Source of the DNA: a methane-oxidizing endosymbiont of Gigantopelta aegis
Lineage (GTDB): Bacteria > Pseudomonadota > Gammaproteobacteria > Methylococcales > Methylomonadaceae
Reading direction: 5' to 3'
Length of the DNA: 64,000 bases
Assembly: GCF_016097405.1 (NCBI RefSeq)
Contig: NZ_JAEHGD010000001.1
Span: 1,485,693-1,549,692 of the forward strand
The position numbers were made by a program, and so were the translations under genes. A model generated the notes under the pieces. That model had not been told where the DNA came from. It saw only the letters and a program-made list of their open reading frames with translations, and did no database searches. Positions 1,195 through 44,439 of this stretch are shown one piece after another; position 1 is the first letter of the stretch, and every line of letters begins with the position of its first letter.

Positions 1195-2064
1195 ATGTCA
1201 AAACCTCCCGCAGTAAAGTCGCACCCGGTCAATTTAGTCCAACACTATGAGCAACAGGTTGAAGAGCAAGGTTTGATTTTTGACCTGGCACAGTTGAATG
1301 TTGTTCAACATCTGCAAGTTATTCTCGATCAGTTAGCCGCAGAGTCTGTGCGGAGAAAGCGCTGGTTTGGGCGGAAAAAGAAGCCGTCGTCATCTCAGGG
1401 TGTCCAGCATTTATATATCTATGGCGAGGTAGGACGGGGCAAATCCATGTTGATGGATATGTTTTATCACGCCTGTCCAATATCCCAAAAACGGCGGGTT
1501 CATTTTCATACCTTTATGCAGGAAGTTCATCAGTTTGTTCACAACTGGACGCAACAGGGCAATGTGATGTCAGCAATGGGGGAAGAGATTAGCCAATCTG
1601 CTCGTTTATTGTGTTTTGATGAATTCCATGTAACCGATATTGCCGACGCTATGATTATGGAACGTTTGTTTCAAAGTCTGTTTGATCAAGGCGTTTGTGT
1701 CGTGATTACATCAAATCGACATCCCTCCGATTTATATCAAGGGGGACTATTACGCGAACAGTTTTTGCGTTTTGTGAATAAGTTGTTGAACAAGGTTGAT
1801 GTGGTGGAATTGACGGCAAAGCAGGATTATCGGCGGCAAGGCGTGGCTTCAGAGCAGCTGCGTTTTATTTATCCTCTAGGGCAGGATAGCACAGCCTGTC
1901 TCCAGCAACGTTATCATCAGTTAAGCGATGCCGGTGTGGTTGAAGCAGGCATCGTACAAATATCAGGCCGAAAGATTCAGGTTGAAGCCTGGCACGGGCG
2001 GGTTTTATGGGCAACTTTTTCGCAATTATGCCGTGAATCATTAGGGGACTTTGGGAGAAACTGA
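1195..2064 (+). pseudogene. zapE: zapE, 5' fragment (AFG1-like cell-division ATPase, split by an IS remnant)
   Basis: ZapE is an AFG1-family AAA ATPase that acts on the FtsZ ring in Proteobacteria. Walker A GEVGRGKS is at residues 77-84 and Walker B LLCFDEF at 138-144. ZapE sequence runs to Leu283-Gly284, then five codons from the IS remnant lead to TGA at 2062. The missing C-terminal 100 or so residues resume at 2557. Joining the two sides across the duplicated TA restores a continuous protein of about 387 residues. The truncated product keeps the ATPase core but loses the conserved end, so function is doubtful. No clear ribosome-binding site precedes 1195. Confidence 0.85.
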
Positions 2065-2554
2065 AGATAATTATGTTGAAAATGGGAATTTATGACAAAC
2101 CTTGTCTTCGAAAAACAGTCGAAGGTATTTTTTATCGCTTGCGAGTAGGTTGTCCCTGGAGAGATTTACCCACGGCTTTTGGTAATTGGAATGCGGTATA
2201 TAAACGATTCAATGACTGGTCTCGTAAAGAAAAACTGATGGGTATTTTTAACGCCTTGGTTGTTGATCCAGACCTGGAATGGGAATTTATTGATGGGAGT
2301 ATTGTGAAAGCACATCAGCATAGTAGTGGTGCGGCCTGTGAACAAGAAACAGCGATAGGGAAATCTGTCGCCGGGAACACCAGTAAAATTCATATGGCCG
2401 TTGATGCCTGTGGTCTTCCTATTCATTTCTCAGTGACAGGCGGCGAAGTTCATGACTGTAAAGAAGCACCGAAATTAGTTGCAGAGCTCCCAAAAGGTGA
2501 CTATATAGTTGCTGACAGAGGCTATGACAGTGAAGCATTACGTCTTCCAGCCCC
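2044..2554 (+). mobile_element. Internally deleted IS5-family element (511 bp) inside zapE
   Basis: Aligned to the intact copy at 43538-44389, this copy keeps only the outermost 4 bp (GGGG) of the left end and 7 bp (CAGCCCC) of the right end. About 109 bp next to the left end and 232 bp next to the right end are missing, leaving 511 bp. TA is present on both sides (2042-2043 and 2555-2556), the same target duplication as in the other copies. It shares two base variants with the copy at 14384, not with the copies at 40180 and 43538. Insert plus duplication is 513 bp, a multiple of three, but it carries an in-frame stop for zapE. Confidence 0.85.
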
Positions 2555-2561
2555 TAGGTAG
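2073..2561 (+). pseudogene. Transposase fragment of the zapE IS remnant
   Basis: This is an internal piece of the 249-residue IS5-family transposase. It carries the first two catalytic aspartates (DGSIVKAH and ADRGYDS contexts) but lacks the N-terminus and the C-terminal region with the catalytic glutamate. The last codons run out of the element into zapE sequence. It cannot encode an active transposase. Confidence 0.8.
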
Positions 2562-2871
2562 TCGTGATTTTTTAGCTCTTGTTGGGCAGTTTGATACGGT
2601 CATTTTAGAGGCTATTCCAAAACTTTCGGCCGATGAATTTGACGCAGCGCGGCGGTTCAGCATATTGATCGATATTTTGTATGAAAACAAGCGCTTATTG
2701 ATTTGCAGCTGCGAGGTTAAAGCCGCCGAAATTTATACCGAAGGTGACGGCGTTTTCGAATTTCAGCGCACGGTGTCTCGGTTAATCGAGATGCAGAGTC
2801 AACAATATCTTGCAGAACATAATCAACAGGTAGAGAATAAGGAAAAGACAGTCACGCAATATTCGGGCTAA
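2557..2871 (+). pseudogene. zapE: zapE, 3' fragment
   Basis: This encodes the conserved C-terminal end of ZapE/AFG1, beginning GSRDFLALVGQFDTV and including EGDGVFEFQRTVSRL. It lies in the same frame as the 5' fragment (1195-2064) once the 511-bp insert and one TA are removed. An in-frame ATG at 2509 lies inside the IS remnant and could start a short chimeric peptide, which is unlikely to work alone. The V-ATPase operon starts 20 bp after its stop, so zapE and the operon may have shared a transcript. Confidence 0.82.
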
Positions 2872-2891
2872 TCATCTTAAGCGGAGGACGC

Positions 2892-4262
2892 ATGATTCAC
2901 AACATGATTCGACACCAGCGCATTGAAGCGATTATTGGTAATATCATGAAAGTGAAAATTTCCAATATTGCCCAATTACAGGATATTGCGCCCTGTTTTG
3001 GCGATCTTGCCCGGGTGGAGGATGGGAGCGGCTATTTTTCATTGGCGCAAGTAATCAAGATTACTGATGATGAAGTCTCTCTGCAGGTTTTTTCGGGTAC
3101 TCAGGGGCTTTCAACCCAGGCTTCCATTCTGTTTTTAGGCCATTCCATGCAGGTAACCTATTCGGCCAATATTTTAGGGCGGATTTTTAATGGTGTCGGT
3201 GAGCCGATGGATGGTGGTTCATCCCTGGCTCCCGACCCTAAAGTGTCGATTGAATCCGTGACGGTGAACCCGGTTAAGCGGCTATTGGCATCAAATATGA
3301 TTCGGACCAATATTCCGATGATCGATGTTTTCAATTGTCTGGTTGAAAGCCAGAAAATTCCCATATTTTCCATTTCCGGCGAACCATACAACCCTTTTCT
3401 GGCCCGTATTGCAATCCAGGCCGATGCGGATATTGTAGTTTTTGCGGGCTTAGGGTTGATTTATGATGATTTTCATTTTTTTCGTCATCAGTTTGAGCAG
3501 GCCGGGGTGTTTGCCCGGACTGTCATGTTTACCAACCTGGCTTCCGATCCGATTGTCGAGCGCCTGCTGGTGCCGGATATGGCGTTGACTGTGGCCGAGC
3601 GTTTTGCGGTGGAAGAGGGTAAAAGAGTTTTGGTTTTAATGACCGATATGACCGCCTATGCCGATGCCATGAAAGAAGTCGGTATCGCCATGGAACATGT
3701 GCCTTCGAATCGGGGGTATATGGGGGATTTGTATTCGCAATTGGCCAAGCGTTATGAAAAAGCCTGTGATTATCAAGGGGCTGGCTCGGTGACGATTTTG
3801 ACCGTCACCACCATGCCGGGCAATGATGTGACTCACCCAGTGCCGGATAATACCGGCTATATCACCGAAGGGCAGTTTTATTTGCATGACAATATGATTG
3901 ACCCTTTCGGTTCCTTGTCGCGATTGAAACAGCATGTTATCGGCAAGGTGACACGGGAAGATCACAGTCAGATTATGAACACTATGATCCGCTTTTATTC
4001 TTCGGCGGTTGAGGCTGAACAAAAACAGGCAATGGCATTTGATTTATCGGACTTTGATCTGCGATTGTTAAAATTTGGCCAATTATTTCGACAACGCTTT
4101 ATGGATATTACGGTTTCGATTCCGCTGGAGGAAGCACTGGATTTATGTTGGCAAACGTTGGCCGAGTGTTTTGAAGCCGAAGAACTGCTGATGAAGCAGG
4201 CGTTGATTGATAAATATTTCCCCGGCCGGAATACGGATCAGGTCATGGAAGCAGGGGGCTAA
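2892..4262 (+). CDS. atpB: V/A-type ATP synthase subunit B
   Basis: Non-catalytic nucleotide-binding subunit of the V1/A1 hexamer, 456 residues, normal length for the family. As expected for B subunits it lacks a canonical GxxGxGKT loop; the equivalent stretch reads SGEPYNPFLARIAIQ. The segments TDMTAYADAMKEV and the following SNRGYMGDLYSQLAKRYEKA are family hallmarks. GGAGG five bases before ATG 2892 supports this start. It is the first gene of a tightly packed operon (B, D, I, K, E, DUF2764, A), whereas related bacterial operons usually begin with E. Confidence 0.93.
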   Translation: MIHNMIRHQRIEAIIGNIMKVKISNIAQLQDIAPCFGDLARVEDGSGYFSLAQVIKITDDEVSLQVFSGTQGLSTQASILFLGHSMQVTYSANILGRIFNGVGEPMDGGSSLAPDPKVSIESVTVNPVKRLLASNMIRTNIPMIDVFNCLVESQKIPIFSISGEPYNPFLARIAIQADADIVVFAGLGLIYDDFHFFRHQFEQAGVFARTVMFTNLASDPIVERLLVPDMALTVAERFAVEEGKRVLVLMTDMTAYADAMKEVGIAMEHVPSNRGYMGDLYSQLAKRYEKACDYQGAGSVTILTVTTMPGNDVTHPVPDNTGYITEGQFYLHDNMIDPFGSLSRLKQHVIGKVTREDHSQIMNTMIRFYSSAVEAEQKQAMAFDLSDFDLRLLKFGQLFRQRFMDITVSIPLEEALDLCWQTLAECFEAEELLMKQALIDKYFPGRNTDQVMEAGG

Positions 4263-4263
4263 T

Positions 4264-4857
4264 ATGCGTCGATTAACCTTTAACAAAGCGGCCTTACATC
4301 AGCAAATACGCTTGTTGAAGCGGTATCGACAGTTTTTGCCGTCATTGGATTTAAAACGAAAACAATTATTACAAGAACGTGCCAAGGCTCAAGCGCGCTT
4401 ATCTGATACACAAAAGCAGCTGGAATTATGTTTGGACTGGGTTGAAACCGAACTGCCCATGTTGGCAGATTCGCGGATTGAGGTGGAAAGCCTGGTTAAG
4501 ATTCGGCGTATCAAAACCACTGAGAAAAATAGTGTCGGTATTCGCTTGCCGGTATTGGAAGCGGTTGAATTTGAACCTGTGCAGTATTCTTATTTTTGCA
4601 AGCCGCATTGGGTAGATGGCTATATCCATAAAATGCAGCAGGCGCTGAGGCTGAATATTCAATTATCGATCGAGCAGCAGCGTTTGGATATTCTGCAACA
4701 AGCACTCAGAAAGGTCACGCAGCGGGTGAATTTATTCGATAAGGTTTTGATTCCACAAACACTGGATAATATTCGAAAAATACGCATTTATTTGTCAGAT
4801 AATGAGCGCGCTGCGGTTATTCGGTCAAAAATCACTAAGCAAAAAAGAGCGGGCTAA
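4264..4857 (+). CDS. atpD: V/A-type ATP synthase subunit D (central stalk)
   Basis: Central rotor shaft subunit, 197 residues. It is rich in long helices with coiled-coil character at both ends, as expected for NtpD/AtpD, which couples ring rotation to the A3B3 hexamer. The start at ATG 4264 lies two bases after the stop of subunit B and has a purine-rich GCAGGGGGC ahead of it. An upstream in-frame extension to 4207 would overlap B and is less likely. The stop overlaps the next gene by one base. Confidence 0.87.
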   Translation: MRRLTFNKAALHQQIRLLKRYRQFLPSLDLKRKQLLQERAKAQARLSDTQKQLELCLDWVETELPMLADSRIEVESLVKIRRIKTTEKNSVGIRLPVLEAVEFEPVQYSYFCKPHWVDGYIHKMQQALRLNIQLSIEQQRLDILQQALRKVTQRVNLFDKVLIPQTLDNIRKIRIYLSDNERAAVIRSKITKQKRAG

Positions 4858-6659
4858 TGGCCATCGTCCGTTTAAAAAAAGTCACTGTTACAGGTCTTCG
4901 GAAAGAGAAGCAGGCGGTGCTGGAAAAATTGCAGCAATTAGGGCAAGCACATTTGATTGCTTTGAATCCACAAGCTGCTAAAAGTCAGGGTGAATTGCGG
5001 CAACAAAATCGTGATGTATTGACGGCGTTGAAATACCTCAATCAATGTCCCCGAAAACGGCCACAAATCGATGACATGGATGATTTCGATTTGGATAAGA
5101 CCATAGCTCAAATACTGGATATTAAAGAAAAAAGTCGACAATTATCGGAACAATTGGAACAGGTTCAGCTTAAGATCAAGCATCTTGAGCCGTGGGGTGA
5201 TTTTAAATTGCCGCCGCTGGATGCTTTGAAGGGTATTCGCTTATGGTTTTATCGCGTACCACGGCATTTGCTGAAAAAAATAGCCAAGAACTTGATTTGG
5301 CAAGTTGTCCATGAGGACAATATTCATTGCTATGTTGTGGTTTTATCGACCAAAGAGCCGGCGCGTAATGCGATGCCTGTTGCACGATCCCATACCGGTT
5401 CAGTGCCTTTATCCACGCTTCGAAAACAGGCTTTGCGCATCACTCTGGAGCTTGAAGACTTGCAAGCACAACGTGAATCCTTAACCCGTTGGATTACGTT
5501 AATTTCTTTTAGCCTGCTCAAATATCAAGATCGGCTCGATCTTAAACAAGCGATGTTGATGGCCCTGGATACGCCAGATTTGTTTATTATTCAGGCATGG
5601 CTGCCTGAGGCGGCTGAAGCTGAAATGATACGCTTTGCTCGCAGACAGCAGCTGGCGCTTTTGTTTGAAGCACCGGTGCCTAAGGACACGCCGCCAACCT
5701 TATTGAAAAACCCAGAATGGATAGCTGCCGGTGAAGACTTGATTCGATTTTATCAAATACCGGGATATCGCGAATGGGACCCCTCCGGTATCGTGTTTTT
5801 CTCGTTTGCTACATTTTTTGCCATGATTATGTCTGATGCAGGCTATGCCAGTGTGCTGGGGTTGATTTTACTGTTGAAATGGAAGCACGCAGGTCAAACT
5901 GAAAAGGGACGAAGAATGCGCATTCTTGCGTTGTTTATCGTGCTGTTCTCATTGCTTTGGGGCGTGATAACCGGCAGTTATTTCGCTATCCCATTACCGC
6001 CTGAGTCAATATTGGCGAAAGCTGCGATACTCGATTTATCTGATTTTGATCAAATGATGCGATTGTCGATTGCCGTGGGGGTCGCACACCTGATACTGGC
6101 GAATCTGATTAAAGCCTGGCAATATCGAAAAACGACGCGTGCACTGGCGTCCGTAGGCTGGGCTGTGTTGGCGGCGGCAGGGTTTATGGAATGGATTGAG
6201 TTTGGGCAGGCAGACGCAACGATGAGCCCAAGTCGAATCGGTATTGTGACAGGATTGGCATTCGTTTTATGTTTCAGCAGCTCTCGCCCACTTTCCCGTC
6301 CACAAGATTTATTCTGGCGTCTATTGGAGGGCGTAAAAAAAATGGCCCAGGTTTCGCAGATTTTTGGTGATGCTTTGAGCTATTTACGTCTGTTTGCATT
6401 AGGGCTTGCAAGTGCTTCTTTAGCGCTGACATTTAATCATCTGGCCGGCAATGTTTACCACGCTATGCCCGGGGTGGGCTTGTTTTTGAGTTTGCTGATT
6501 TTGTTGGCAGGACATCTACTGAATTTGATGTTATGTTTAATGAGCGGTGTGGTGCATGGGTTACGCCTTAATTTTATTGAGTTTTTTCATTGGAGCCTGT
6601 CAGATGAAGGGTATCCGTTTAAAGTTTTTGCTTGTCGGGAGGAAATAGGCCATGGTTGA
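4857..6659 (+). CDS. atpI: V/A-type ATP synthase subunit I (membrane stator)
   Basis: This is the Vph1/NtpI-type subunit forming the ion half-channels, 600 residues. Residues 1 to about 300 are cytoplasmic and partly coiled coil; about 310-575 hold several membrane helices. Both arginines known to matter in yeast Vph1 are recognisable: Arg511 in SYLRLFALGLAS and Arg570 in HGLRLNFIEFF. The protein is somewhat short for the family, like other bacterial V-type forms. It overlaps the start of K by 8 bp. Confidence 0.92.
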   Translation: MAIVRLKKVTVTGLRKEKQAVLEKLQQLGQAHLIALNPQAAKSQGELRQQNRDVLTALKYLNQCPRKRPQIDDMDDFDLDKTIAQILDIKEKSRQLSEQLEQVQLKIKHLEPWGDFKLPPLDALKGIRLWFYRVPRHLLKKIAKNLIWQVVHEDNIHCYVVVLSTKEPARNAMPVARSHTGSVPLSTLRKQALRITLELEDLQAQRESLTRWITLISFSLLKYQDRLDLKQAMLMALDTPDLFIIQAWLPEAAEAEMIRFARRQQLALLFEAPVPKDTPPTLLKNPEWIAAGEDLIRFYQIPGYREWDPSGIVFFSFATFFAMIMSDAGYASVLGLILLLKWKHAGQTEKGRRMRILALFIVLFSLLWGVITGSYFAIPLPPESILAKAAILDLSDFDQMMRLSIAVGVAHLILANLIKAWQYRKTTRALASVGWAVLAAAGFMEWIEFGQADATMSPSRIGIVTGLAFVLCFSSSRPLSRPQDLFWRLLEGVKKMAQVSQIFGDALSYLRLFALGLASASLALTFNHLAGNVYHAMPGVGLFLSLLILLAGHLLNLMLCLMSGVVHGLRLNFIEFFHWSLSDEGYPFKVFACREEIGHG

Positions 6660-28950: not shown

Positions 28951-29107
28951 TAGCCGAAGGTGATAAACAATAATGCTTTTAAGTATTGACCTAAATGAGT
29001 GAAATTGCAATTTTTAAGCTGCATAAATTTGCTGAGTTGTTCAACTATTAAGGTATTATCGGCAAGGCGAGGGTTAGCGTGTATTTTTCAAATTATTATT
29101 GGCCAGC

Positions 29108-30289
29108 ATGAATCAGTTGTTTAAATATTTTTTTATTGTCGGTTTGCTTTTGCTAGAGATTCAGCATTCTGTTTTTGCCGATGAAAAACAAAAAATAAGC
29201 ATTGTTTTTTTAAGCCAAGAAAAACAAGTGCCTGCTGCCTTATCCAATCTTGATGCGTTTGTTCAGCACAAGGGTCTTAAAGGTGCTGAAATGGCGGTTG
29301 CGGATAATAATACGACAGGCCAGTTTACCGGGCAGAATTTTGAGTTGAAGCATGTCATTATTCCGCTTGGTGAAAGTGTATTGGCGGCTTTTAAGCGGCA
29401 TGCGAGCGATTCTGATTTGTTTGTCGTCAATGTGTCCGATAATCAACTATTGAAATTGGCCGACCTGGATGAGGCTAAAACCAAGCTGATTTTTGATGGG
29501 GTCAGTCGAGCCGATGAGTTACGAAATGAATTTTGCAGGCATAATGTGTTGCATATGTTGCCCAGTCGTGCCATGCGTGCCGATGCTTTGGCGCAATATA
29601 TGTTAAAGAAACGCTGGCAGAAATGGTTTTTAGTGGTTGGTCCGACAAAAGATGATAAACGTTTTGCCCAAGCGTTACATCGCGCGGCAGAGCGTTTTGG
29701 CATGGATATTGTTGCTGAAAAACAATGGTTACATACCTATGACGCCAGACGCACGGCGCAATCAGATGTGCCGGTTTTTACCCAAGATGTCTCGGAGTAT
29801 GATGTTCTGGTTGTGGCCGATGAACAAGGGCTGTTTGGCGAATACTTCAGTTATCGAACCTGGTTGCCAAGGCTGGTTATCGGTACTCAGGGGCTGGTTG
29901 CCACGGCCTGGCACAGAACCCATGAACAATGGGGGGCTGTGCAAATGCAGAACCGTTTTAAAGATTATGCCGGGCGATGGATGGAGGAAGAGGACTACGG
30001 TGCCTATTTAGCCGTAAGAGCCATTGGTGAGGCGGCGACGCGCACCCAATCGAATAAGATCAGTGATTTAAAAGCTTATTTGCTCAGTGATCAATTAGCT
30101 CTGCAAGGCTATAAAGGTCGACCTTTGTCATTCAGGCGCTGGAACGGGCAGTTGCGGCAACCGGTGTTATTGGCGGCGGCTCGCTCTTTAGTTGCCGTAG
30201 CGCCTTTAGACGGCTTTTTACACCCTAAAACAGAGCTGGATAGCTTAGGCTATGATCAGCCCGAAACACGTTGTCATCTCGGAGAGTAG
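29108..30289 (+). CDS. ABC transporter substrate-binding protein, PQQ-dependent alcohol dehydrogenase-associated type
   Basis: A secreted periplasmic binding-protein-like product of 393 residues. A signal peptide (about 1-25, ending SVFA) is followed by a Leu/Ile/Val-binding-protein-like fold. It is the first of four genes arranged exactly as in the systems that accompany quinoprotein alcohol dehydrogenases (binding protein, YVTN propeller, ATPase, permease). ATG 29108 is chosen because it begins the signal peptide; a TTG nine bases upstream is also in frame. The transported substrate is unknown. No quinoprotein dehydrogenase gene lies in the window. Confidence 0.8.
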   Translation: MNQLFKYFFIVGLLLLEIQHSVFADEKQKISIVFLSQEKQVPAALSNLDAFVQHKGLKGAEMAVADNNTTGQFTGQNFELKHVIIPLGESVLAAFKRHASDSDLFVVNVSDNQLLKLADLDEAKTKLIFDGVSRADELRNEFCRHNVLHMLPSRAMRADALAQYMLKKRWQKWFLVVGPTKDDKRFAQALHRAAERFGMDIVAEKQWLHTYDARRTAQSDVPVFTQDVSEYDVLVVADEQGLFGEYFSYRTWLPRLVIGTQGLVATAWHRTHEQWGAVQMQNRFKDYAGRWMEEEDYGAYLAVRAIGEAATRTQSNKISDLKAYLLSDQLALQGYKGRPLSFRRWNGQLRQPVLLAAARSLVAVAPLDGFLHPKTELDSLGYDQPETRCHLGE

Positions 30290-30290
30290 C

Positions 30291-31250
30291 ATGTTGAAAC
30301 AGGTTGCAGGTATTTTAGGTTTGTTGTTGGCAGTCAATGCTGGGGCCGATACCGTTTATGTCACGCTGGAAAAAGATAATGCCTTAGCGGTTGTGGATGC
30401 CGAGGCGGGAGCATTGATAAAAACGGTTACGGTAGGTCAGCGTCCGCGCGGAATTTTGCTCAGCAAAGACGGCACACAGCTTTATGTGGCAACCAGTGAT
30501 GACGATACTATTAAGATAATTGATGCTGAAACCTTGGCCGAAATTGGCCAGTTGCCTTCGGGAGAAGATCCTGAAACCTTTGCACAAAGTCCGGATGGCG
30601 CTTTTCTGTATGTTTCCAACGAAGATGATAACCAGGTCACGGTTATTGATATTAAACAGCGTAAGGTCGTGGCGAGGATTCCTGTCGGTGTCGAGCCTGA
30701 AGCAGTCGCGGTAAGTCCTAATAACAAATGGGTGGTCAGTGCCTCAGAAACCACCAATATGGTGCATTGGATCGACCCTGTAAGCCATCAAGTTGTCGCC
30801 AATACCCTGGTCGACCCGCGTCCGCGCGGCGCCAGCTTCAGTGCCGATGGCAAGCAGCTTTGGGTAACATCGGAGATGGCAGGGAGTTTGATGATTATTG
30901 ATGTCGCCAGCAAGAAAATCATCAAAAAATTGGCCCTCAGTATTCCAACGGTCACAGATGATAAAATACAGCCGGTCGGGGTGGTGATTGATGCCGCTCA
31001 GCGGTGGGCTTATGTCGCCATGGGGCCGGCTAATCGTGTCGCTGTGATCAATGCTCAAACGCTGGAAGTGGAAAAATTTCTGCTGGTTGGTCAGCGTGTC
31101 TGGAATTTGGCCTTTTCGCCCGATCAAAAACGTCTCTACACAACGAATGGTGTCAGCAACGATATTTCGATCATTGATTTGGACACACATAAAGTCATTA
31201 AATCCGTTGCGGTAGGACGTTATCCATGGGGCATCGTGTCAAGACCATGA
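30291..31250 (+). CDS. YVTN-family beta-propeller protein of the PQQ-type ABC set
   Basis: Periplasmic seven-bladed beta-propeller, 319 residues, with signal peptide (about 1-19, ending NAGA). YVTN-like repeats of about 42 residues run through the protein, with recurring motifs such as LYVATSDDDTIKIID, LYVSNEDDNQVTVID and LYTTNGVSNDISIID. GGAGAG lies ahead of ATG 30291, one base after the binding-protein stop. The propeller presumably docks to a periplasmic partner; which one is not known. Its 3' end overlaps the ATPase gene by 4 bp. Confidence 0.85.
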   Translation: MLKQVAGILGLLLAVNAGADTVYVTLEKDNALAVVDAEAGALIKTVTVGQRPRGILLSKDGTQLYVATSDDDTIKIIDAETLAEIGQLPSGEDPETFAQSPDGAFLYVSNEDDNQVTVIDIKQRKVVARIPVGVEPEAVAVSPNNKWVVSASETTNMVHWIDPVSHQVVANTLVDPRPRGASFSADGKQLWVTSEMAGSLMIIDVASKKIIKKLALSIPTVTDDKIQPVGVVIDAAQRWAYVAMGPANRVAVINAQTLEVEKFLLVGQRVWNLAFSPDQKRLYTTNGVSNDISIIDLDTHKVIKSVAVGRYPWGIVSRP

Positions 31251-31984
31251 AAAAGCCGGCGCTGGAGATTGAACAATTAAGTTTTGCCTACGGTAAAAAA
31301 AAGGCCTTGGATCATGTCAATTTGACGATTCAGCCAGCCGAATGCTGTGTTTTGTTAGGACCGAACGGCGCTGGAAAAAGCACTTTATTTGCACTGATTA
31401 CGCGACTTTATGATTGTCGTGAAGGGCGTATTGCCTTGTGCGGCTTTGATATTAAGCAGGAAAGCCTCAAGGCATTGGCAAAATTAGGCGTCGTGTTTCA
31501 ACAGACGACATTGGATCCGGATTTAACCGTTCTGCAGAACCTGCATTATCATGCCGCCTTGCATGGCATGAGTCGAAAGCAAGCAGACCAGCGCATTCAG
31601 CAGGAGCTGGAGCGGTTCGAAATGTATCATCGTCGCAAAGAAAAAGTCCGGCAGCTTAATGGCGGGCATAAACGTCGCGTGGAGATTGCCCGGGCTTTAT
31701 TGCACAAACCGCAATTATTATTGCTGGATGAACCGACTGTGGGCCTGGATATGCCTAGCCGACAAGGTATTGTCGAGCATGTCCATGCATTGGTGAAGGA
31801 TGAAAAAATAGCCGTTTTATGGGCCACGCACTTGGTTGATGAAATTTATCCGGATGATAAGCTAGTGATTTTGCATCAAGGCAAGATTAAAGCCGATGGT
31901 GTGGTAAGTGAGGTGCTGCAAAAAACGGGCACCGAGACCATTCGAGAGGCCTTCAGTCGGTTGACGGAGGGTATGGCGACATGA
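31247..31984 (+). CDS. ABC transporter ATP-binding protein, PQQ-associated type
   Basis: ABC ATPase of 245 residues. Walker A is GPNGAGKST, the Q-loop FQQTTLD, Walker B LLLLDEPT and the H-loop WATHLVDEI. The ABC signature is LNGGHKRRVE instead of LSGGQ, a deviation at two positions that could affect dimer chemistry. I take ATG 31247, which overlaps the propeller stop as ATGA; an ATG at 31226 would extend into that gene. It overlaps the permease by 4 bp. Confidence 0.9.
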   Translation: MKKPALEIEQLSFAYGKKKALDHVNLTIQPAECCVLLGPNGAGKSTLFALITRLYDCREGRIALCGFDIKQESLKALAKLGVVFQQTTLDPDLTVLQNLHYHAALHGMSRKQADQRIQQELERFEMYHRRKEKVRQLNGGHKRRVEIARALLHKPQLLLLDEPTVGLDMPSRQGIVEHVHALVKDEKIAVLWATHLVDEIYPDDKLVILHQGKIKADGVVSEVLQKTGTETIREAFSRLTEGMAT

Positions 31985-32784
31985 GGATTTTACATTATTG
32001 GCGGGCATTGTCCGGCATTGTCAGTCGAGAAGTTTGGCGCTTTCTGTATCAACGGGAACGCTTTATTGCTGCGCTGGTCAGGCCATTGGTCTGGCTGTTT
32101 GTATTTGCCGCAGGATTTCGCGCCGCATTGGGTATCGCTATCACACCACCCTATGAAACCTATATTCTGTATGAGGTTTATATAACCCCGGGACTGCTTG
32201 GCATGATCCAGCTTTTTAATGGTATGCAAAGCTCCTTGTCAATGGTATATGACCGCGAAATGGGTAGTATGCGGATACTGATGGTAGCACCGTTGCCACG
32301 TGGATTTCTGTTAATGGCAAAGCTTGTAGCAGGCACGTTTGTGTCTATCTTACAAGCCTATGTGTTTTTAGGGATTGCCTGGCTGTATGGTATTCAACCA
32401 CCCCTGGCAGGCTTGCTCTGGGTTTTTCCAGCTTTGGTTTTGTCTGGCATGATGTTGGGTGCGTTGGGTTTGTTGTTATCGTCTTTTATTAAACAACTGG
32501 AAAACTTTGCCGGAGTAATGAATTTCGTGATTTTCCCAATGTTTTTTATGTCAACAGCCTTGTATCCTCTGTGGAAAATCAAAGAATCCAGCGAATGGCT
32601 GTATTGGATTGCTCAATACAACCCATTTTCCCAGGCAGTTGAACTCATCCGCTTTGCTTTATATGGTCAATTAAATCAATATGCGTTGATTTATACCGGT
32701 GCGGCCTTTGTTATTTTTATGCTGTTGGCCATTTTAGGCTATAACCCGTCTAAAGGCATGATGATGCGAAAAGGACGGGGCTGA
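31981..32784 (+). CDS. ABC-2 type transporter permease, PQQ-associated type
   Basis: Integral membrane permease of 267 residues with about six helices. It contains the ABC-2 loop after the second helix (SMVYDREMGSMRILMVAPLPRGFLLMAKL), so it is probably an exporter or a lipid-handling permease rather than an importer. It resembles the permease of the PedC-like alcohol-associated systems. It overlaps the ATPase by 4 bp and is the last gene of the four; dtd faces it with a 12-bp gap. Confidence 0.87.
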   Translation: MRILHYWRALSGIVSREVWRFLYQRERFIAALVRPLVWLFVFAAGFRAALGIAITPPYETYILYEVYITPGLLGMIQLFNGMQSSLSMVYDREMGSMRILMVAPLPRGFLLMAKLVAGTFVSILQAYVFLGIAWLYGIQPPLAGLLWVFPALVLSGMMLGALGLLLSSFIKQLENFAGVMNFVIFPMFFMSTALYPLWKIKESSEWLYWIAQYNPFSQAVELIRFALYGQLNQYALIYTGAAFVIFMLLAILGYNPSKGMMMRKGRG

Positions 32785-33857: not shown

Positions 33858-35876
33858 ATGTCCGAAAGAAAAATTCTCGTTACCAGCGCATTGCCTTATG
33901 CCAATGGCCCTATCCATCTGGGGCATTTAGTTGAATATATCCAGACCGACATCTGGGTTCGATTTCAGAAACAACGGGGGCATTGTTGTCATTACGTCTG
34001 CGCGGATGATACACATGGTACGCCAATCATGTTGCGCGCTGATCGAGAAAACATCACGCCGGAGCAGTTGATTGCCCAGGTGGAAAAGGAACATCGTGCC
34101 GATTTTGACGATTTTGGCGTGGCTTTCGATCATTACCACAGCACACATTCTCCTGAAAACAAAGAACTTTCAGCGCTGATCTATACGCGATTACGCGATG
34201 CCGGGCATATCAGCAAACGTACGATTGTACAAGCCTATGATCCGGTGAAAAAAATGTTTCTGCCAGACCGGTTCATTAAAGGTGATTGCCCGAAATGCGG
34301 CGCTAAAGATCAATATGGCGACAGTTGTGAAGCCTGTGGCGCAACCTATTCACCCACCGATTTGAAAAATGCGGTGTCAGTGGTCTCAGGCGAAAAACCT
34401 GTCGAAAAAGAATCAGAACATTTCTTTTTCAATCTGGCAGATTTCAGTGACATGCTGGCAGAGTGGGTTAATCAACCCGGCCATTTACAGCCGGAAGTCC
34501 GGAATAAAATGGCTGAATGGCTGGAAAATGGCTTGCAGCAATGGGACATTTCCCGCGATGCGCCTTATTTTGGTTTTGAAATCCCGGATGCGCCAGGTAA
34601 ATATTTTTACGTCTGGCTGGATGCGCCTATCGGTTATATGGCCAGTTTTAAAAAATTGTGCGAACTGAAAGGTTTAGATTTCGATGATTATTGGGGTAAG
34701 GACAGCGCGGCCGAGTTGTATCATTTCATTGGTAAAGATATTATCTATTTTCATGCCTTGTTCTGGCCTGCCATGTTATATGGTGCCGGTTTCAGAACAC
34801 CTAGCGCGGTCTGGGCGCATGGCTTTCTAACCGTCAATGGCGAGAAGATGTCCAAATCGCGTGGGACCTTCATTAAAGCGCGCACCTATTTAAATCATCT
34901 CAATCCTGAATATCTGCGCTATTATTTTGCCGCGAAACTGACTGCTGGCGTCGATGATCTGGATTTGAATTTTGATGATTTCAGTCAGCGGGTCAATTCC
35001 GACCTAGTCGGGAAAGTGGTTAATATCGCCAGCCGTTGCTCAGGATTTATCAAAAAACGATTTGATAACACCTTGTCGGCTGAATGTGCTGAGCCGGCAT
35101 TGTTTCAGCAATTTATTGATGCCAATGAGGTGATTGCCGCGTTGTATGAAAAACGTGAATTCGGCAAGGCCATGCGTGAAATTATGGCGCTGGCCGATAA
35201 GGCCAATCAATATATTGACGAGAAAAAACCTTGGATTATCGCCAAGGAAGAAGGTCGAGATGCCGAATTACATGCGATTTGTTCCATGGGTATTAATCTA
35301 TTCAGAGTGCTGGTTGCTTATCTAAAACCTGTATTGCCGGTGTTAGCGGGCAATGCCGAGCAGTTTTTGAATATCGAATCGCAGTCTTGGCCGGCCACTG
35401 CCGAACCGTTACTGAATCATGCTATCAATAAATTCAAACCGTTGATGACGCGTGTTGAACCGGAAAAAATCGCGGCGATTATTGAAGATTCCAAAGAAAA
35501 CCTGGAGAAAACAGCTGAAGCACCGGTTAAAAAGCACGAGCCAATTGCCGAGACGATCGAGTTTGATGATTTCGCTAAAATTGATTTACGCATCGCTAAA
35601 ATCATCAAGGCTGAACATGTTGAAGGGGCGGATAAATTATTGCAATTGACCGTAGATATTGGCGATGAAACCCGGACTGTTTTTGCCGGCATCAAATCGG
35701 CCTATGCCCCCGAGGATTTAGAAGGCAAAATGACCGTTGTGGTGGCTAACCTCAAACCGCGCAAAATGCGTTTTGGTGTCTCTGAAGGCATGGTGTTGGC
35801 GGCAGGCCCTGGCGGTAAAGACCTTTGGGTATTGCATCCTGATCAAGGCGCTAAGCCTGGTATGCGCGTTAAATAA
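33858..35876 (+). CDS. metG: Methionyl-tRNA synthetase
   Basis: Class I synthetase of 672 residues. The HIGH-type motif is PIHLGH near residue 14, the zinc knuckle is CPKCG...CEACG around 143-160, and the KMSKS motif is EKMSKSRG near 332. The C-terminal 110 residues are a tRNA-binding OB fold homologous to Trbp111, as in E. coli MetRS, and drive dimer formation. It starts a set of rightward genes running through the hybrid-cluster homologue and its ferredoxin. GAGAG lies ahead of the ATG. Confidence 0.97.
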
Positions 35877-35897
35877 TCCGCTTTATACGAGGTTTTC

Positions 35898-37580
35898 ATG
35901 TTTTGTTATCACTGTCAGGAAGCGAAAAAAAATAAAGTTTGTGATACGGCCGGAATTTGCGGCAAAAAAGCCAATATTTCGAGTCTTCAGGACTTATTGA
36001 TGTATAGCCTCAAGGGCTTGGCTTTTTATGCTGATCATGCGGTCAAGTTTAATTTAGTCAGTGTCAGGACGCATCGATTCATGGCCAAGGCGCTGTTTTC
36101 GATGGTGACCAATGTTAACTTTTCGGCGACTGATTTTGTGCAGTTGATTGATGAAGCCGTGCGTCGACGTAATTCGATTCGGGATAAACTGCTAATCGCT
36201 TGGCAGGAGAAGCATGGTGAGGCTTTCAATGAGCCGCTTCCTGAAGAAGCGTTGTGGCAATACGAGAGCGTGGACGAAAAAGCCTTTACCGAGAAGGGAG
36301 AGCAGGTCGGCATACCGTATTATCTGGAAAAATATAAGCTGGATACTGATGTTCATGCTTTGCAGGAATGTTTGCTTTACGCGGCAAAAGGATTAGGTTC
36401 GTTGGCCGTACATAATCTTGAGCTCGGCGTTGAAGAGACAAACTTTTACCTGTTTTTGTATCAGGCGTTGACGCTGACCTTAAACACCGATAATCAATTG
36501 GATGAAGTCTGGACAATACTGTTGGAGAGTGGACGCATAGGGCTAGCCGCTATGCATCAGCTAGAGCGTGCAAATGCACAGCAATTCGGTGAGATGGAGC
36601 CGACGACGGTATTTTTGGATACTTGGGACAGACCAGGTATTCTGGTTTCTGGGCATGATTTACGCGATATAGAAGATTTGCTGGTGCAAACTGCCGGTAC
36701 TGGCGTGGATGTTTACACCCATGACGAAGCAATGTCGGCACACGCTTATCCGGCGTTAAAAAAGTTTTATAACCTAGTCGCGAACTATGGCGGTGCCTGG
36801 CAGGATCAAAAAACACAGTTTCCCAAGTTTAATGGGCCTATTCTGGTCACCACCAACAGTATTCAGCAGCCGAAAAAAACCTATGAAAACAGATTGTTCA
36901 GTACCGGTATGGTGGGGTGGCCGAATGTACCACATATCCCCGATCGCAAGCCTGGGCAGCGTAAAGACTTCAGTGCCTTGATCGAATTGGCCAAAACCTG
37001 TGAGCCACCTGCGCCACTAATGGAAGGGGAGCATATCACAGGCTATGGTTTGTCGGCATTGAAGCGTTTACTGACGCCGATTGCCGAAGCCATAAAAACG
37101 GGAAAAATCAAACGTATTATCGTGTTGGCGGGCACTGACGGACGTCACAAAGAGCGTCGTTATTACACTGAGTTGGCTGAAACGCTGCCTGAAAACACCT
37201 TGATTCTTTCGGCAGGCGATGTCCGTTATCGTTTTTTTCAGCATGATTTTGGGAAAATAGATGATATTCCACGGTTGCTCGATTGTGGACAGAATTACGA
37301 CTTTAATGGCATCCTGGATTTTCTTGAACAATTGCAACAGGCTCTGCAGCTTGAACAGTTCAATCAGTTGCCGGTGTCATTCAACATTGCCTGGTATGAA
37401 CAAAAAACGATTTTGATGATGTTGGCTTTGTTTGCCCGAGATATCCAAAATGTTCGGGTCGGCCCAACCTTGCCGCCTTTCTTTACGCCAAACATTTTAG
37501 CCATGCTTGAACAAAAATATAGCTTGAAAGGTATCGACAGCGTTGAAAACGATATTGCTGCCATGTTGGCGGGGCAGTAA
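35898..37580 (+). CDS. Hybrid cluster protein (Hcp) homologue lacking all four hybrid-cluster cysteines
   Basis: A 560-residue homologue of hydroxylamine reductase/hybrid cluster protein. The N-terminal cysteines C3-x2-C6-x8-C15-x5-C21 match the class I 4Fe-4S motif. Of the known hybrid-cluster ligands (D. vulgaris numbering in brackets) His253 (H244), Glu277 (E268) and Glu501 (E494) are kept. Ser321 replaces C312, Thr413 replaces the persulfide C406, Asp441 replaces C434, and Asn466 replaces C459. Flanking sequence such as GHDLRDIEDLL, GVDVYTHDEA and WYEQK is well conserved, and the frame is intact, so this looks like a functional protein with a changed or absent second cluster. Calling it hydroxylamine or NO reductase would be unsafe. 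Confidence 0.85.
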   Translation: MFCYHCQEAKKNKVCDTAGICGKKANISSLQDLLMYSLKGLAFYADHAVKFNLVSVRTHRFMAKALFSMVTNVNFSATDFVQLIDEAVRRRNSIRDKLLIAWQEKHGEAFNEPLPEEALWQYESVDEKAFTEKGEQVGIPYYLEKYKLDTDVHALQECLLYAAKGLGSLAVHNLELGVEETNFYLFLYQALTLTLNTDNQLDEVWTILLESGRIGLAAMHQLERANAQQFGEMEPTTVFLDTWDRPGILVSGHDLRDIEDLLVQTAGTGVDVYTHDEAMSAHAYPALKKFYNLVANYGGAWQDQKTQFPKFNGPILVTTNSIQQPKKTYENRLFSTGMVGWPNVPHIPDRKPGQRKDFSALIELAKTCEPPAPLMEGEHITGYGLSALKRLLTPIAEAIKTGKIKRIIVLAGTDGRHKERRYYTELAETLPENTLILSAGDVRYRFFQHDFGKIDDIPRLLDCGQNYDFNGILDFLEQLQQALQLEQFNQLPVSFNIAWYEQKTILMMLALFARDIQNVRVGPTLPPFFTPNILAMLEQKYSLKGIDSVENDIAAMLAGQ

Positions 37581-37586
37581 AGTGCT

Positions 37587-38159
37587 ATGAATCGAGCACG
37601 GGTCGATGAGATCGACGCCATTTTGCCGCAAACGCAATGCACGCAATGCGGCTATCAGGGTTGCCGGCCTTATGCCGAAGCGATTGCGGCAGGTCTTGCC
37701 GATATTAACCAATGCCCACCGGGTGGTAAAGCCGGGATTAAAAAACTGGCTGCGCTGCTGAATCGACCCGAAAAACCACTAAATCCAGTACATGGGATAG
37801 AAAAGCCGCGCCAGGTGGCGGTGATTATTGAGGCCGATTGCATCGGCTGTACCAAATGCCTGCCGGCTTGCCCGGTCGATGCCATTATCGGCAGTAATAA
37901 GCATATGCACACCGTGATTATGACAGAATGCACCGGCTGTGAACTGTGCATTGCACCGTGTCCGGTCGACTGTATTGAAATGCAGACACTACATGATGCC
38001 GAGCCCTGGAATGAGAACATGGCCAATCACGCGCGGATGCGCTATTACAACAAATTGCAGCGACAACAACAGGACGCCCAGGCTAAGGCTGAGCGTCTTG
38101 CAAAACAAAAACAACGGCTGGCGAAAATAAAGTCGCGACAAAAAACCGTCACGCGATAG
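37587..38159 (+). CDS. RnfB-like ferredoxin (soluble, three 4Fe-4S sites)
   Basis: A 190-residue iron-sulfur protein with the domain order of RnfB but without its N-terminal membrane anchor. Residues 18-43 form the Fes-type site C18-x2-C21-x4-C26-x16-C43. Two ferredoxin motifs follow: C85-x2-C88-x2-C91-x3-C95 and C115-x2-C118-x2-C121-x3-C125, each with the usual proline. The C-terminal 45 residues are Lys/Gln-rich and helical. It starts six bases after the Hcp-like gene, so it is the probable electron partner of that protein; no other rnf genes are nearby. Confidence 0.85.
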
Positions 38160-40097: not shown

Positions 40098-40200
40098 ATG
40101 AGCAGACGCAAACGAATAGATAGGCTGGAAGAAGAGGAAAGCCAAGATCGCTGGCTGGTCTCGTATGCTGATTTTATTAGGGGCTGTTGCCATTTCACAT
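40098..40200 (+). pseudogene. motD: motD, 5' fragment (MotB-family flagellar stator, split by IS)
   Basis: The first 27 codons of motD end at SYADFI, the start of the single membrane helix of MotB-type stators. The IS at 40180 follows and adds seven foreign codons to a stop at 40200. Native sequence resumes with TLLFAFFVVMYSIAQLN at 41033 after the second TA. No motC, cheA or cheB lies upstream, although these normally precede motD in polar-flagellum operons. Confidence 0.85.
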
Positions 40201-41031
40201 AGGTAACCATAAAAAGGCGCAAGCCAGAGCGATAGAGCCTTCAAAATTTCGTTTGAGTTTGTCATATCGCGTGGCGATCGCTCTGAAATGCTTAAGTCTT
40301 GCAAACACATTTTCAACGAGATGGCGATATTTGTAGAGACACCAATCCATTTCATCATTTCCCCGAGTTGAATTCTTTTTTTCTTGGGATAACAGGAACA
40401 GCCCCTTTGTCTTTAATTTGAAGACGTAATGCTTCACTGTCATAGCCTCTGTCAGCAACTATATAGTCACCTTTTGGGAGCTCTGCAACTAATTTCGGTG
40501 CTTCTTTACAGTCATGAACTTCGCCGCCTGTCACTGAGAAATGAATAGGAAGACCACAGGCATCAACGGCCATATGAATTTTACTGGTGTTCCCGGCGAC
40601 AGATTTCCCTATCGCTGTTTCTTGTTCACAGGCCGCACCACTATTATGCTGATGTGCTTTCACAATACTCCCATCAATAAATTCCCATTCCAGGTCTGGA
40701 TCAACAACCAGGGCGTTAAAAATACCCATCAGTTTTTCTTTACGAGACCAGTCATTGAATCGTTTATATACCGCATTCCAATTACCAAAAGCCGTGGGTA
40801 AATCTCTCCAGGGACAACCTACTCGCAAGCGATAAAAAATACCTTCGACTGTTTTCGAAGACAAGGTTTGTCATAAATTCCCATTTTCAACATAATTATC
40901 TTCAGTTTCTCCCAAAGTTCATCCGTAAGCAGTTGTCGCGGCATAGTTTGCTTGTTTTTGAGTCAAAATAAACAATCTATGTGGCGGAGTTATTGAATTT
41001 CAAGGGGGATTTTCAAAACGGCAACAGCCCC
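40180..41031 (-). mobile_element. IS5-family (IS427-like) insertion sequence in motD, reverse orientation
   Basis: An 852-bp copy in reverse orientation with 12-bp terminal repeats GGGGCTGTTGCC and a TA duplication (40178-40179, 41032-41033). It interrupts codon 28 of motD. It carries the same two variants as the copy at 43538. Relative to that copy it has one A missing near 40857 and one A extra near 40376, so its total length is unchanged. Confidence 0.93.
40195..40944 (-). pseudogene. IS5-family transposase with two compensating-length frameshifts
   Basis: The same 249-codon transposase as at 43625, but the reading is broken twice by A-run changes, so only residues about 20-185 and the C-terminal part are read in different frames. 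All three indels seen among the IS copies fall in runs of A, so mutation and sequencing error are both possible. Confidence 0.82.
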
Positions 41032-41035
41032 TACA

Positions 41036-43517: not shown

Positions 43518-43537
43518 AAAATATCAATATTCGACTA

Positions 43538-44389
43538 GGGGCTGTTGCCGTTTTGAAAATCCCCCTTGAAATTCAATAACTCCGCCACATAGATTGTTTA
43601 TTTTGACTCAAAAACAAGCAAACTATGCCGCGACAACTGCTTACGGATGAACTTTGGGAGAAACTGAAGATAATTATGTTGAAAATGGGAATTTATGACA
43701 AACCTTGTCTTCGAAAAACAGTCGAAGGTATTTTTTATCGCTTGCGAGTAGGTTGTCCCTGGAGAGATTTACCCACGGCTTTTGGTAATTGGAATGCGGT
43801 ATATAAACGATTCAATGACTGGTCTCGTAAAGAAAAACTGATGGGTATTTTTAACGCCCTGGTTGTTGATCCAGACCTGGAATGGGAATTTATTGATGGG
43901 AGTATTGTGAAAGCACATCAGCATAATAGTGGTGCGGCCTGTGAACAAGAAACAGCGATAGGGAAATCTGTCGCCGGGAACACCAGTAAAATTCATATGG
44001 CCGTTGATGCCTGTGGTCTTCCTATTCATTTCTCAGTGACAGGCGGCGAAGTTCATGACTGTAAAGAAGCACCGAAATTAGTTGCAGAGCTCCCAAAAGG
44101 TGACTATATAGTTGCTGACAGAGGCTATGACAGTGAAGCATTACGTCTTCAAATTAAAGACAAAGGGGCTGTTCCTGTTATCCCAAGAAAAAAGAATTCA
44201 ACTCGGGGAAATGATGAAATGGATTGGTGTCTCTACAAATATCGCCATCTCGTTGAAAATGTGTTTGCAAGACTTAAGCATTTCAGAGCGATCGCCACGC
44301 GATATGACAAACTCAAACGAAATTTTGAAGGCTCTATCGCTCTGGCTTGCGCCTTTTTATGGTTACCTATGTGAAATGGCAACAGCCCC
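43538..44389 (+). mobile_element. IS5-family (IS427-like) insertion sequence, intact copy
   Basis: An 852-bp element with perfect 12-bp terminal inverted repeats GGGGCTGTTGCC/GGCAACAGCCCC, a TA duplication at 43536-43537 and 44390-44391, and one uninterrupted transposase gene. Size, end sequence, TA target and transposase type suit the IS427 group of IS5. It separates parP from cheW and may be the active parent for the other copies. Confidence 0.95.
43625..44374 (+). CDS. IS5-family transposase (intact)
   Basis: DDE transposase of 249 residues, the only uninterrupted copy in the window. The N-terminal region (PRQLLTDELWEKLKIIM...RVGCPWRDLPTAFGNW) is a DUF4096-like DNA-binding part. Catalytic residues are Asp in DGSIVKAHQH, Asp in ADRGYDSEAL and Glu in HLVENVFARLK. 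It is read as a single frame, whereas many IS427 relatives use two overlapping frames. Confidence 0.95.
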   Translation: MPRQLLTDELWEKLKIIMLKMGIYDKPCLRKTVEGIFYRLRVGCPWRDLPTAFGNWNAVYKRFNDWSRKEKLMGIFNALVVDPDLEWEFIDGSIVKAHQHNSGAACEQETAIGKSVAGNTSKIHMAVDACGLPIHFSVTGGEVHDCKEAPKLVAELPKGDYIVADRGYDSEALRLQIKDKGAVPVIPRKKNSTRGNDEMDWCLYKYRHLVENVFARLKHFRAIATRYDKLKRNFEGSIALACAFLWLPM

Positions 44390-44439
44390 TACACTAAAAG
44401 CATAAAATTTTAATCCGCTTTATCTAGGAAGAGTGAGCA

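Follow-up and report, generated by a model that had tools for sequence, protein, structure and literature searches.

A cysteine-depleted clade of hybrid cluster protein paralogues in methanotrophs of the Methylococcales

What remains of a hybrid cluster protein (HCP) when the cysteines that hold its hybrid cluster have been replaced? The question is raised by a gene, named hcpX here, that occupies positions 35898..37580 (forward strand) of a 64,000-nucleotide stretch from the genome of a methane-oxidizing endosymbiont of Gigantopelta aegis (contig NZ_JAEHGD010000001.1); the whole of this stretch is referred to as the window. The physiological role of the hybrid cluster itself has been elusive for three decades (PMC10210160; this paper, PMC6344411, PMC6977074, PMC8788690 and PMC10623323 are cited from excerpts). 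A first-pass annotation of the window had described hcpX as an HCP homologue in which all four hybrid-cluster cysteines are replaced. The analysis supports the view that the loss of cysteine ligands is real, under purifying selection, centred on the cysteine ligands and common to an entire cysteine-depleted clade of methanotroph genes, designated clade X.

Ligand positions in the window protein and in clade X

The gene is an intact open reading frame of 560 codons beginning with ATG, and both its translation and an alignment to the Hcp of Desulfovibrio vulgaris bear out every motif and substitution that the first-pass annotation had quoted. Residues are numbered hereafter according to the D. 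vulgaris protein (Dv) unless the window protein is specified. Membership of the prismane/HCP family is given by matches to NF003658 (the NCBIfam model named 'hydroxylamine reductase'; 582.3 bits against a cut-off of 367, residues 1-558 of 560) and PF03063 (375.9 bits, cut-off 27); TIGR01703 is matched at 535.5 bits, and phmmer aligned residues 1-560 of the window protein with residues 1-553 of D. vulgaris Hcp (1E2U) at an E-value of 2.6e-144. The proximal motif, C-x2-C-x8-C-x5-C, is that of class I HCPs. Its x2/x8/x5 spacing, with no 4-residue insertion, and the neighbours metG and rnfB rather than hcr set the protein apart from class II, and a class I-type N-terminal part that aligns from residue 1, together with the retention of Glu277, sets it apart from class III HCPs and from Ni-containing carbon monoxide dehydrogenases (CODHs). 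Class III HCPs have a reduced N-terminal domain, and most CODHs have a cysteine at the Glu268 position.

The HCP fold was also recovered by an AlphaFold2 model of the window protein (pLDDT 90.6, pTM 0.91). Foldseek matched this model to the three-domain structures 1E1D and 1E2U with a TM-score of 0.95 at 42% identity, and VIA-align placed it on D. vulgaris HCP with a Z-score of 50.2 and a root-mean-square deviation of 1.6 over 548 residues. Confidence was lower in the N-terminal cluster loop and in the loop at 411-420; a canonical class I control (L050), modelled with the same 44 sequences, showed the same dips at a lower mean pLDDT (86.6). Low confidence in the Thr413 loop was rejected as evidence for cluster loss, since the control dips there too (block means 68 and 62).

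Within this scaffold the window protein keeps the proximal [4Fe-4S] ligands Cys3 (35904..35906), Cys6 (35913..35915), Cys15 (35940..35942) and Cys21 (35958..35960), as do all 38 distinct full-length members of clade X. It also keeps His253 (36654..36656; Dv His244), Glu277 (36726..36728; Glu268), Glu501 (37398..37400; Glu494) and Lys503 (Lys496). By both phmmer and the alignment, the four hybrid-cluster cysteines of a catalytic HCP are absent: Ser321 (36858..36860) stands at the position of Cys312, Thr413 (37134..37136) at that of the persulfide-bearing Cys406, Asp441 (37218..37220) at that of Cys434 and Asn466 (37293..37295) at that of Cys459 (all codons on the forward strand). The protein has seven cysteines in total, at positions 3, 6, 15, 21, 158, 368 and 463.

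Homologues of hcpX were collected into a ligand table of 68 clade X rows, which represent 41 distinct sequences, 38 of them full-length. All 41 follow the same pattern, and not one of the 68 rows has a cysteine at 312, 434 or 459. Position 312 is Ser in 66 rows and Asn in two (37 and one of the 38 distinct full-length members), and position 434 is Asp in 58 and Glu in 10 (32 and six of the 38). Position 459 reads Ser in 33 rows, Thr in 22, Ala in five, Asn in three, Ile and Val in two each and Gly in one, with the same seven residues, and never Cys, among the 38 members. Glu268 and Glu494 are invariant (68/68 each); Cys3, Cys6 and Cys15 occur in 65 rows and Cys21 in 66. Of the three rows that lack the first cysteines, two (L049 and L051) begin at a contig edge. 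Position 244 is His in 61 rows, Ser in four, Asn in two and Gln in one (S, N or Q in 4/38 distinct members), and position 496 is Lys in 34, Gln in 30, and Thr or His in two each. Position 406 is Cys in 39 rows, Thr in 16, Tyr in six, Ala in five and Gly in two, and its Cys/not-Cys state has switched at least six times on the tree, three of these switches being forced by starred branches. Replacement of all four cysteines thus holds for the window protein and some branches and fails for clade X as a whole, 406 being Cys in 21 of the 38 distinct members and T, Y, A or G in the other 17.

By alignment, this variable position corresponds to Cys402, the residue that carries the persulfide in M. thermolithotrophicus HCP; together with Glu490 (Dv 494), persulphido-Cys402 (Dv 406) holds Fe8 in the oxidised state (excerpt of PMC10210160); the residue that is Glu492 in E. 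coli Hcp matters for function (PMC10502027).

Could hcpX nevertheless encode an ordinary canonical HCP, a nitric oxide/hydroxylamine reductase that a faulty alignment or annotation misrepresents? Its NCBIfam and Pfam scores are those of a full family member. Misalignment was rejected, the alignment being clear through all ligand motifs, and a shifted ligand, of which Cys463 in place of Cys459 had been named in advance as the example, did not emerge: Cys463 lies three residues before the Cys459 position and is present in just three of the 68 rows, two of them being the window gene itself, counted twice, and the third its 93% relative L003; the remaining 65 have Ala or Val there. Compensating cysteines were likewise rejected, since positions 3, 6, 15 and 21 are the only invariant Cys columns in the 38 full-length members; Cys211 (28/38, absent from the window protein) and Cys368 (24/38, and 54 of 56 class I rows) are distant from the ligand motifs in sequence. 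With the pattern repeated in 41 distinct sequences, a canonical enzyme is very improbable. Because 312, 434 and 459 are always replaced and the cysteine at 406 is absent here, the window protein, in our judgement, would be unable to assemble the [4Fe-2S-2O/3O] cluster of canonical HCPs. For hcpX the automatically assigned name 'hydroxylamine reductase' is therefore probably wrong; the score against NF003658 is reached despite the ligand loss, and naming by such transfer is unsafe, as the first-pass annotation had warned. By fold and descent, as judged from sequence and predicted structure, hcpX is a class I-derived HCP; it is not a catalytic one if the defining cofactor site is the measure.

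A modified Fe-S-O cluster, held by Ser, Asp and Glu residues together with Cys406 where it is kept and perhaps engaged in nitric oxide or peroxide chemistry, would be compatible with the oxygen donors Ser, Thr, Asp and Glu and with the 21 distinct members that have Cys406. A precedent is found in CODH structural groups B-1 to B-3, D-1 and G-1, in which single C-cluster positions have changed from Cys to Asp/Glu or Thr (excerpt of PMC6344411). The window protein has no cysteine at any of the four positions, and 4 of the 38 distinct members have Ile, Ala, Val or Gly at 459, which makes such a cluster distinctly improbable.

Distribution, descent and constraint of clade X

A contig scan found at least 80 loci, with at least 25 close relatives among the matches listed (L025-L047, L049 and L051). 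These relatives are assigned to Methylococcales, to Methylococcaceae and genera therein, or to methanotroph symbionts, L046 being given only as 'Gammaproteobacteria'. Within the order to which the window belongs, 39 of 301 genomes have a match of at least 640 bits (hand count), and all 39 were fetched and typed; as a control, the 67 rows outside the clade in a typed set of 105 all read CCCC-HE-CCCC-EK.

Searches at order, class and phylum level found clade X only in Methylococcales. The class-level search, with the intact gene L125 (described below) as query, covered 369 genomes and gave 15 with a match; the phylum-level search covered 398 genomes and gave 37, the window's own being included in each. 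Clade X gained no member from either. In the covered columns, the 14 other class-level genomes have every ligand, one genome being represented by two fragments; in five class-level rows the N-terminal columns were uncovered, the reading having begun at the match, and the printed upstream residues show the Cys motif. At phylum level 29 of the 36 other genomes had loci and were typed, and 28 of these have the full ligand set; in the twenty-ninth the match starts at residue 257, and no ligand is missing from the part that it covers. A different ligand loss was seen in another Methylococcales family, where L133 (3755-5374; genome G085) encodes an HCP-like protein (Pfam Prismane, 256 bits) that has no N-terminal Cys motif and reads D, G, S, P and C at Dv 244, 312, 406, 434 and 459; it does not have the clade X signature.

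Clade X is monophyletic (100/100) both in a 28-sequence tree, for which the program calls its bootstrap rough, and in an 18-sequence tree. Together with L125 it groups with 18 class I rows (100/100), class II standing apart (100/99), in the tree without class III. Its sister is L125 (99/96), an intact class I HCP (HE-CCCC-EK) from the Methylococcales assembly G189, which also carries a clade X gene; a gyrA-like gene was recognized by eye on the L125 contig. L125 shares His5, Ile20, Val73, Gln323, Met338 and Trp341 with clade X, and among 57 class I rows it alone has His5, the 56 others having Gln; unlike clade X, it has all hybrid-cluster ligands. On grounds of parsimony, the simplest reading is that an intact class I HCP lost the cysteines at 312, 434 and 459 a single time, before the clade diversified, so that L125 would represent the 'before' state. 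This gene comes from one draft assembly, and a binning error is possible; its place in the tree would then stand, and the argument for a loss within the Methylococcales would fall. We judge hcpX to be a neofunctionalised class I HCP paralogue of the Methylococcales.

Values of omega ranged from 0.07 to 0.22 in 11 of 11 clade X gene pairs, compared with 0.05-0.12 for metG (six pairs), 0.11-0.13 for rnfB (four pairs) and 0.05-0.10 for class II hcp (three pairs), several of the dS values being near saturation. These values bear on the suggestion that hcpX is a decaying gene, or the product of a sequencing or assembly error, which the loss of catalytic cluster ligands and the irregular N-terminus of one gene (L132) among 39 might bring to mind. 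Decay was rejected on the basis of the low omega and of the absence of internal stops from all 39 order-level matches, and with a single old origin for the pattern, decay and error taken together are scarcely credible.

Nor is there general erosion of the active-site shell, defined as the columns conserved in class I that lie no more than four residues from a hybrid-cluster ligand (n=43, with n=134 elsewhere): clade X has lost 10 of 43 such columns in the shell and 33 of 134 elsewhere (Fisher p = 1.0), and class II likewise loses 10 of 43. Within clade X, the tree requires no change at Glu268 or Glu494, one at 312, one (D/E) at 434 and seven at each of 406 and 459, the mean column changing 5.8 times.

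A candidate metal site and its alternatives

The reading we prefer, at a rough probability of 0.45, is that the hcpX protein would carry a carboxylate site with one or two irons, which would receive electrons from the [4Fe-4S] cluster. In HCP, the residues at the positions of Glu277, Glu501, Asp441, Ser321 and His253 of the window protein bind metal, and a carboxylate/His metal site, which was among the options raised by the first-pass annotation, is consistent with the fixed oxygen donors of the clade (E268, E494, D/E434 and S/N312). The cavity would hold a small metal site, most likely of one or two irons, with Glu277, Glu501 and Asp441 (replaced by Glu in a sub-branch) as putative ligands, usually joined by His253 and perhaps by Ser321. 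Electrons would pass from the [4Fe-4S] cluster, itself supplied by a ferredoxin-type donor for which the adjacent standalone RnfB is a candidate only, and in oxygen-exposed methanotrophs the protein would probably act on O2, peroxide or a nitrogen oxide, as a small oxidant that it would reduce or sense. In a broader form of this proposal, thiolates would have given way to Ser and Asp/Glu, with the carboxylate/His ligands and the electron-feeding [4Fe-4S] cluster kept. An Fe-S-O cluster enzyme would thereby have become one with O and N ligands only (mono- or diiron), built on the scaffold of its ancestor and representing, in aerobic methanotrophs, an HCP hardened against oxygen; so complete a conversion seems to us rather unlikely.

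Several observations weigh against the preferred carboxylate site and its proposed electron supply. The site is not rigidly fixed, position 244 (His) having changed about four times and 496 (Lys) five. That four of the eight ligand positions change at most once is unexceptional, since 163 of the 560 columns do so, and the invariance of the ligands is therefore suggestive and not significant by itself. One member, L132 (genome G155), is without the first 18 residues, including Cys3, Cys6 and Cys15, the upstream DNA being present. The link to rnfB is weak: rnfB loci were retrieved from 20 relatives without a clade X gene (loci were available from 30 of 61 genomes), and in eight of these metG already lies about 1.5 kb or less from rnfB; hcpX may for that reason simply be inserted between the two. 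Finally, in another branch of clade X the gene lies ahead of a UPF0114 gene, not rnfB.

In L132 (around 1538-3145) the gene begins at residue 19-20 of the other members, and the Cys3/6/15 motif was not found upstream in three frames; this is either an assembly fault or a real copy without the electron-input cluster.

If, instead, only the N-terminal [4Fe-4S] cluster were bound and the cavity were metal-free, the protein would be a pseudoenzyme, acting as an electron carrier, as a sensor of redox state, nitric oxide or O2, or as a regulator of canonical Hcp or of an RnfB-like partner. The proximal cysteines kept in all 38 distinct full-length members and the drift at positions 244, 496, 406 and 459 speak for this explanation, as does a class II-like hcp match, which could take over catalysis, in 19 of the 39 clade X genomes. 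The other 20, the window's own included, have no such match listed (hand count; several are drafts). Two acidic ligands, moreover, are unchanged, the third position has been restricted to Asp/Glu after replacement of its Cys, the cavity shell is retained as well as in class II, and L132 is without three of the four proximal cysteines; on balance a pseudoenzyme is possible, if unlikely. Strict replacement of class II hcp by hcpX was rejected, the same 19 genomes having both, and no other prismane-family match was found in the window's own genome.

For the HCP/CODH superfamily, clade X amounts to a natural experiment in separation of function, in which scaffold and electron-input cluster are kept under selection and the thiolates removed. 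The hcpX protein may do something new, and 'hydroxylamine reductase' can be wrongly transferred in methanotroph genomes. A clade X gene is carried by the record of Methylobacter marinus A45 (L034), which we take to be a cultured strain, and the idea is therefore open to experiment.

Genomic setting and comparison with known systems

In the window, hcpX is preceded by a Shine-Dalgarno-like GAGG (35889..35892, forward strand; sequence reading), which lies 5 nt 5' of its ATG, and by metG, encoding methionine--tRNA ligase (33858..35876, forward strand; NF001100, 1001 bits), which ends 21 bp upstream. Starting 6 bp downstream is the standalone rnfB (37587..38159, forward strand; TIGR01944, 213 bits), with FeS and 4Fe-4S dicluster domains (matches to FeS and Fer4_21); the rnfC of an Rnf complex is found elsewhere in the genome (G000:C2:950977). 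No hcr was seen by eye around hcpX in the window. Promoter-like sites were at chance level (nine found, 8.7 expected), and terminator-like sites exceeded those in shuffled sequence (nine against 4.9, standard deviation 2.0), with none in the metG-hcpX and hcpX-rnfB gaps.

Across 38 neighbourhood rows, many being two copies of one genome and some coming from contigs that end early, metG is on the same locus in 23 and rnfB directly downstream in 19. RnfB as an obligatory partner is not supported, L009 and L031 having metG-hcpX with no rnfB match after it. In L044, toxin-antitoxin- and AAA/PIN-like genes recognized by eye (1289-2936 and 4669-6469) interrupt the metG-hcpX-rnfB arrangement on both sides of hcpX. 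The branch containing Methyloprofundus has a UPF0114 gene after hcpX in 11 rows, four of which also have, ahead of hcpX, a gene that resembles dnaA by eye; this UPF0114 gene (7701-8195 in L036), which overlaps or follows hcpX in the 11 loci, is a possible functional partner there.

Elsewhere in the window, inverted and essentially identical copies of an IS4/5-type transposase (40178-41033 and 43536-44391) flank a motB-parA-cheW-like stretch (partly by eye). Because the left copy stops at 41033 and the MotB frame at 41036 matches MotB_plug only from profile position 29, motB is probably interrupted. At 29099-32784 are a periplasmic-binding-like protein, a YVTN-type beta-propeller and an ABC transporter pair (the pair by eye), genes that we take to resemble a pyrroloquinoline quinone (PQQ)-dependent catabolism cassette of methylotrophs.

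In searches of openly licensed PubMed Central (PMC) papers, no description of HCPs without hybrid-cluster cysteines was recognized. The conserved ligands of Crenothrix D3 Hcp were checked by its authors and are present (PMC5563964). Of the two hcp homologues of Methyloprofundus INp10, read as hydroxylamine reductase, one is highly transcribed, and its high transcription was taken as a sign of hydroxylamine formation (excerpt of PMC8788690); Methyloprofundus-named contigs carry clade X genes (L036, L040, L041 and L049). The 'hydroxylamine reductase' of PMC10623323 was rejected as a lead, the gene in the excerpt being hao.

Class I HCPs (D. vulgaris, 1E2U; M. thermolithotrophicus, 8CNR) are like hcpX in length, in fold and in the positions of C-x2-C-x8-C-x5-C, His244, Glu268, Glu494 and Lys496. 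They differ from it at the four hybrid-cluster cysteines, for which hcpX has S, T, D and N, in the class I GEMLPA beside Glu268, which is DEAMSA in hcpX, and after the former Cys312, where QQ is specific to clade X. Class II Hcp (E. coli; hcp-hcr of Methylobacter and Crenothrix) shares the superfamily and the fold (7DE4, TM-score 0.87), but forms a separate clade with intact ligands in 11 distinct Methylococcales loci, these being the class II loci typed in the order and not all of them. The class II hcp of M. tundripaludum is induced by hypoxia within an hcp-hcr-norR cluster (excerpt of PMC6977074), a different type of locus from metG-hcpX-rnfB. More distantly, class III HCP (7E0L, Z 42.7) and CooS-V (7B7Q, Z 26.1) have the superfamily fold in common with the hcpX model. 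The CODH variant groups have one position substituted, whereas three or four are substituted in hcpX and its relatives, and hcpX retains the glutamates of HCP along with an N-terminus of class I type.

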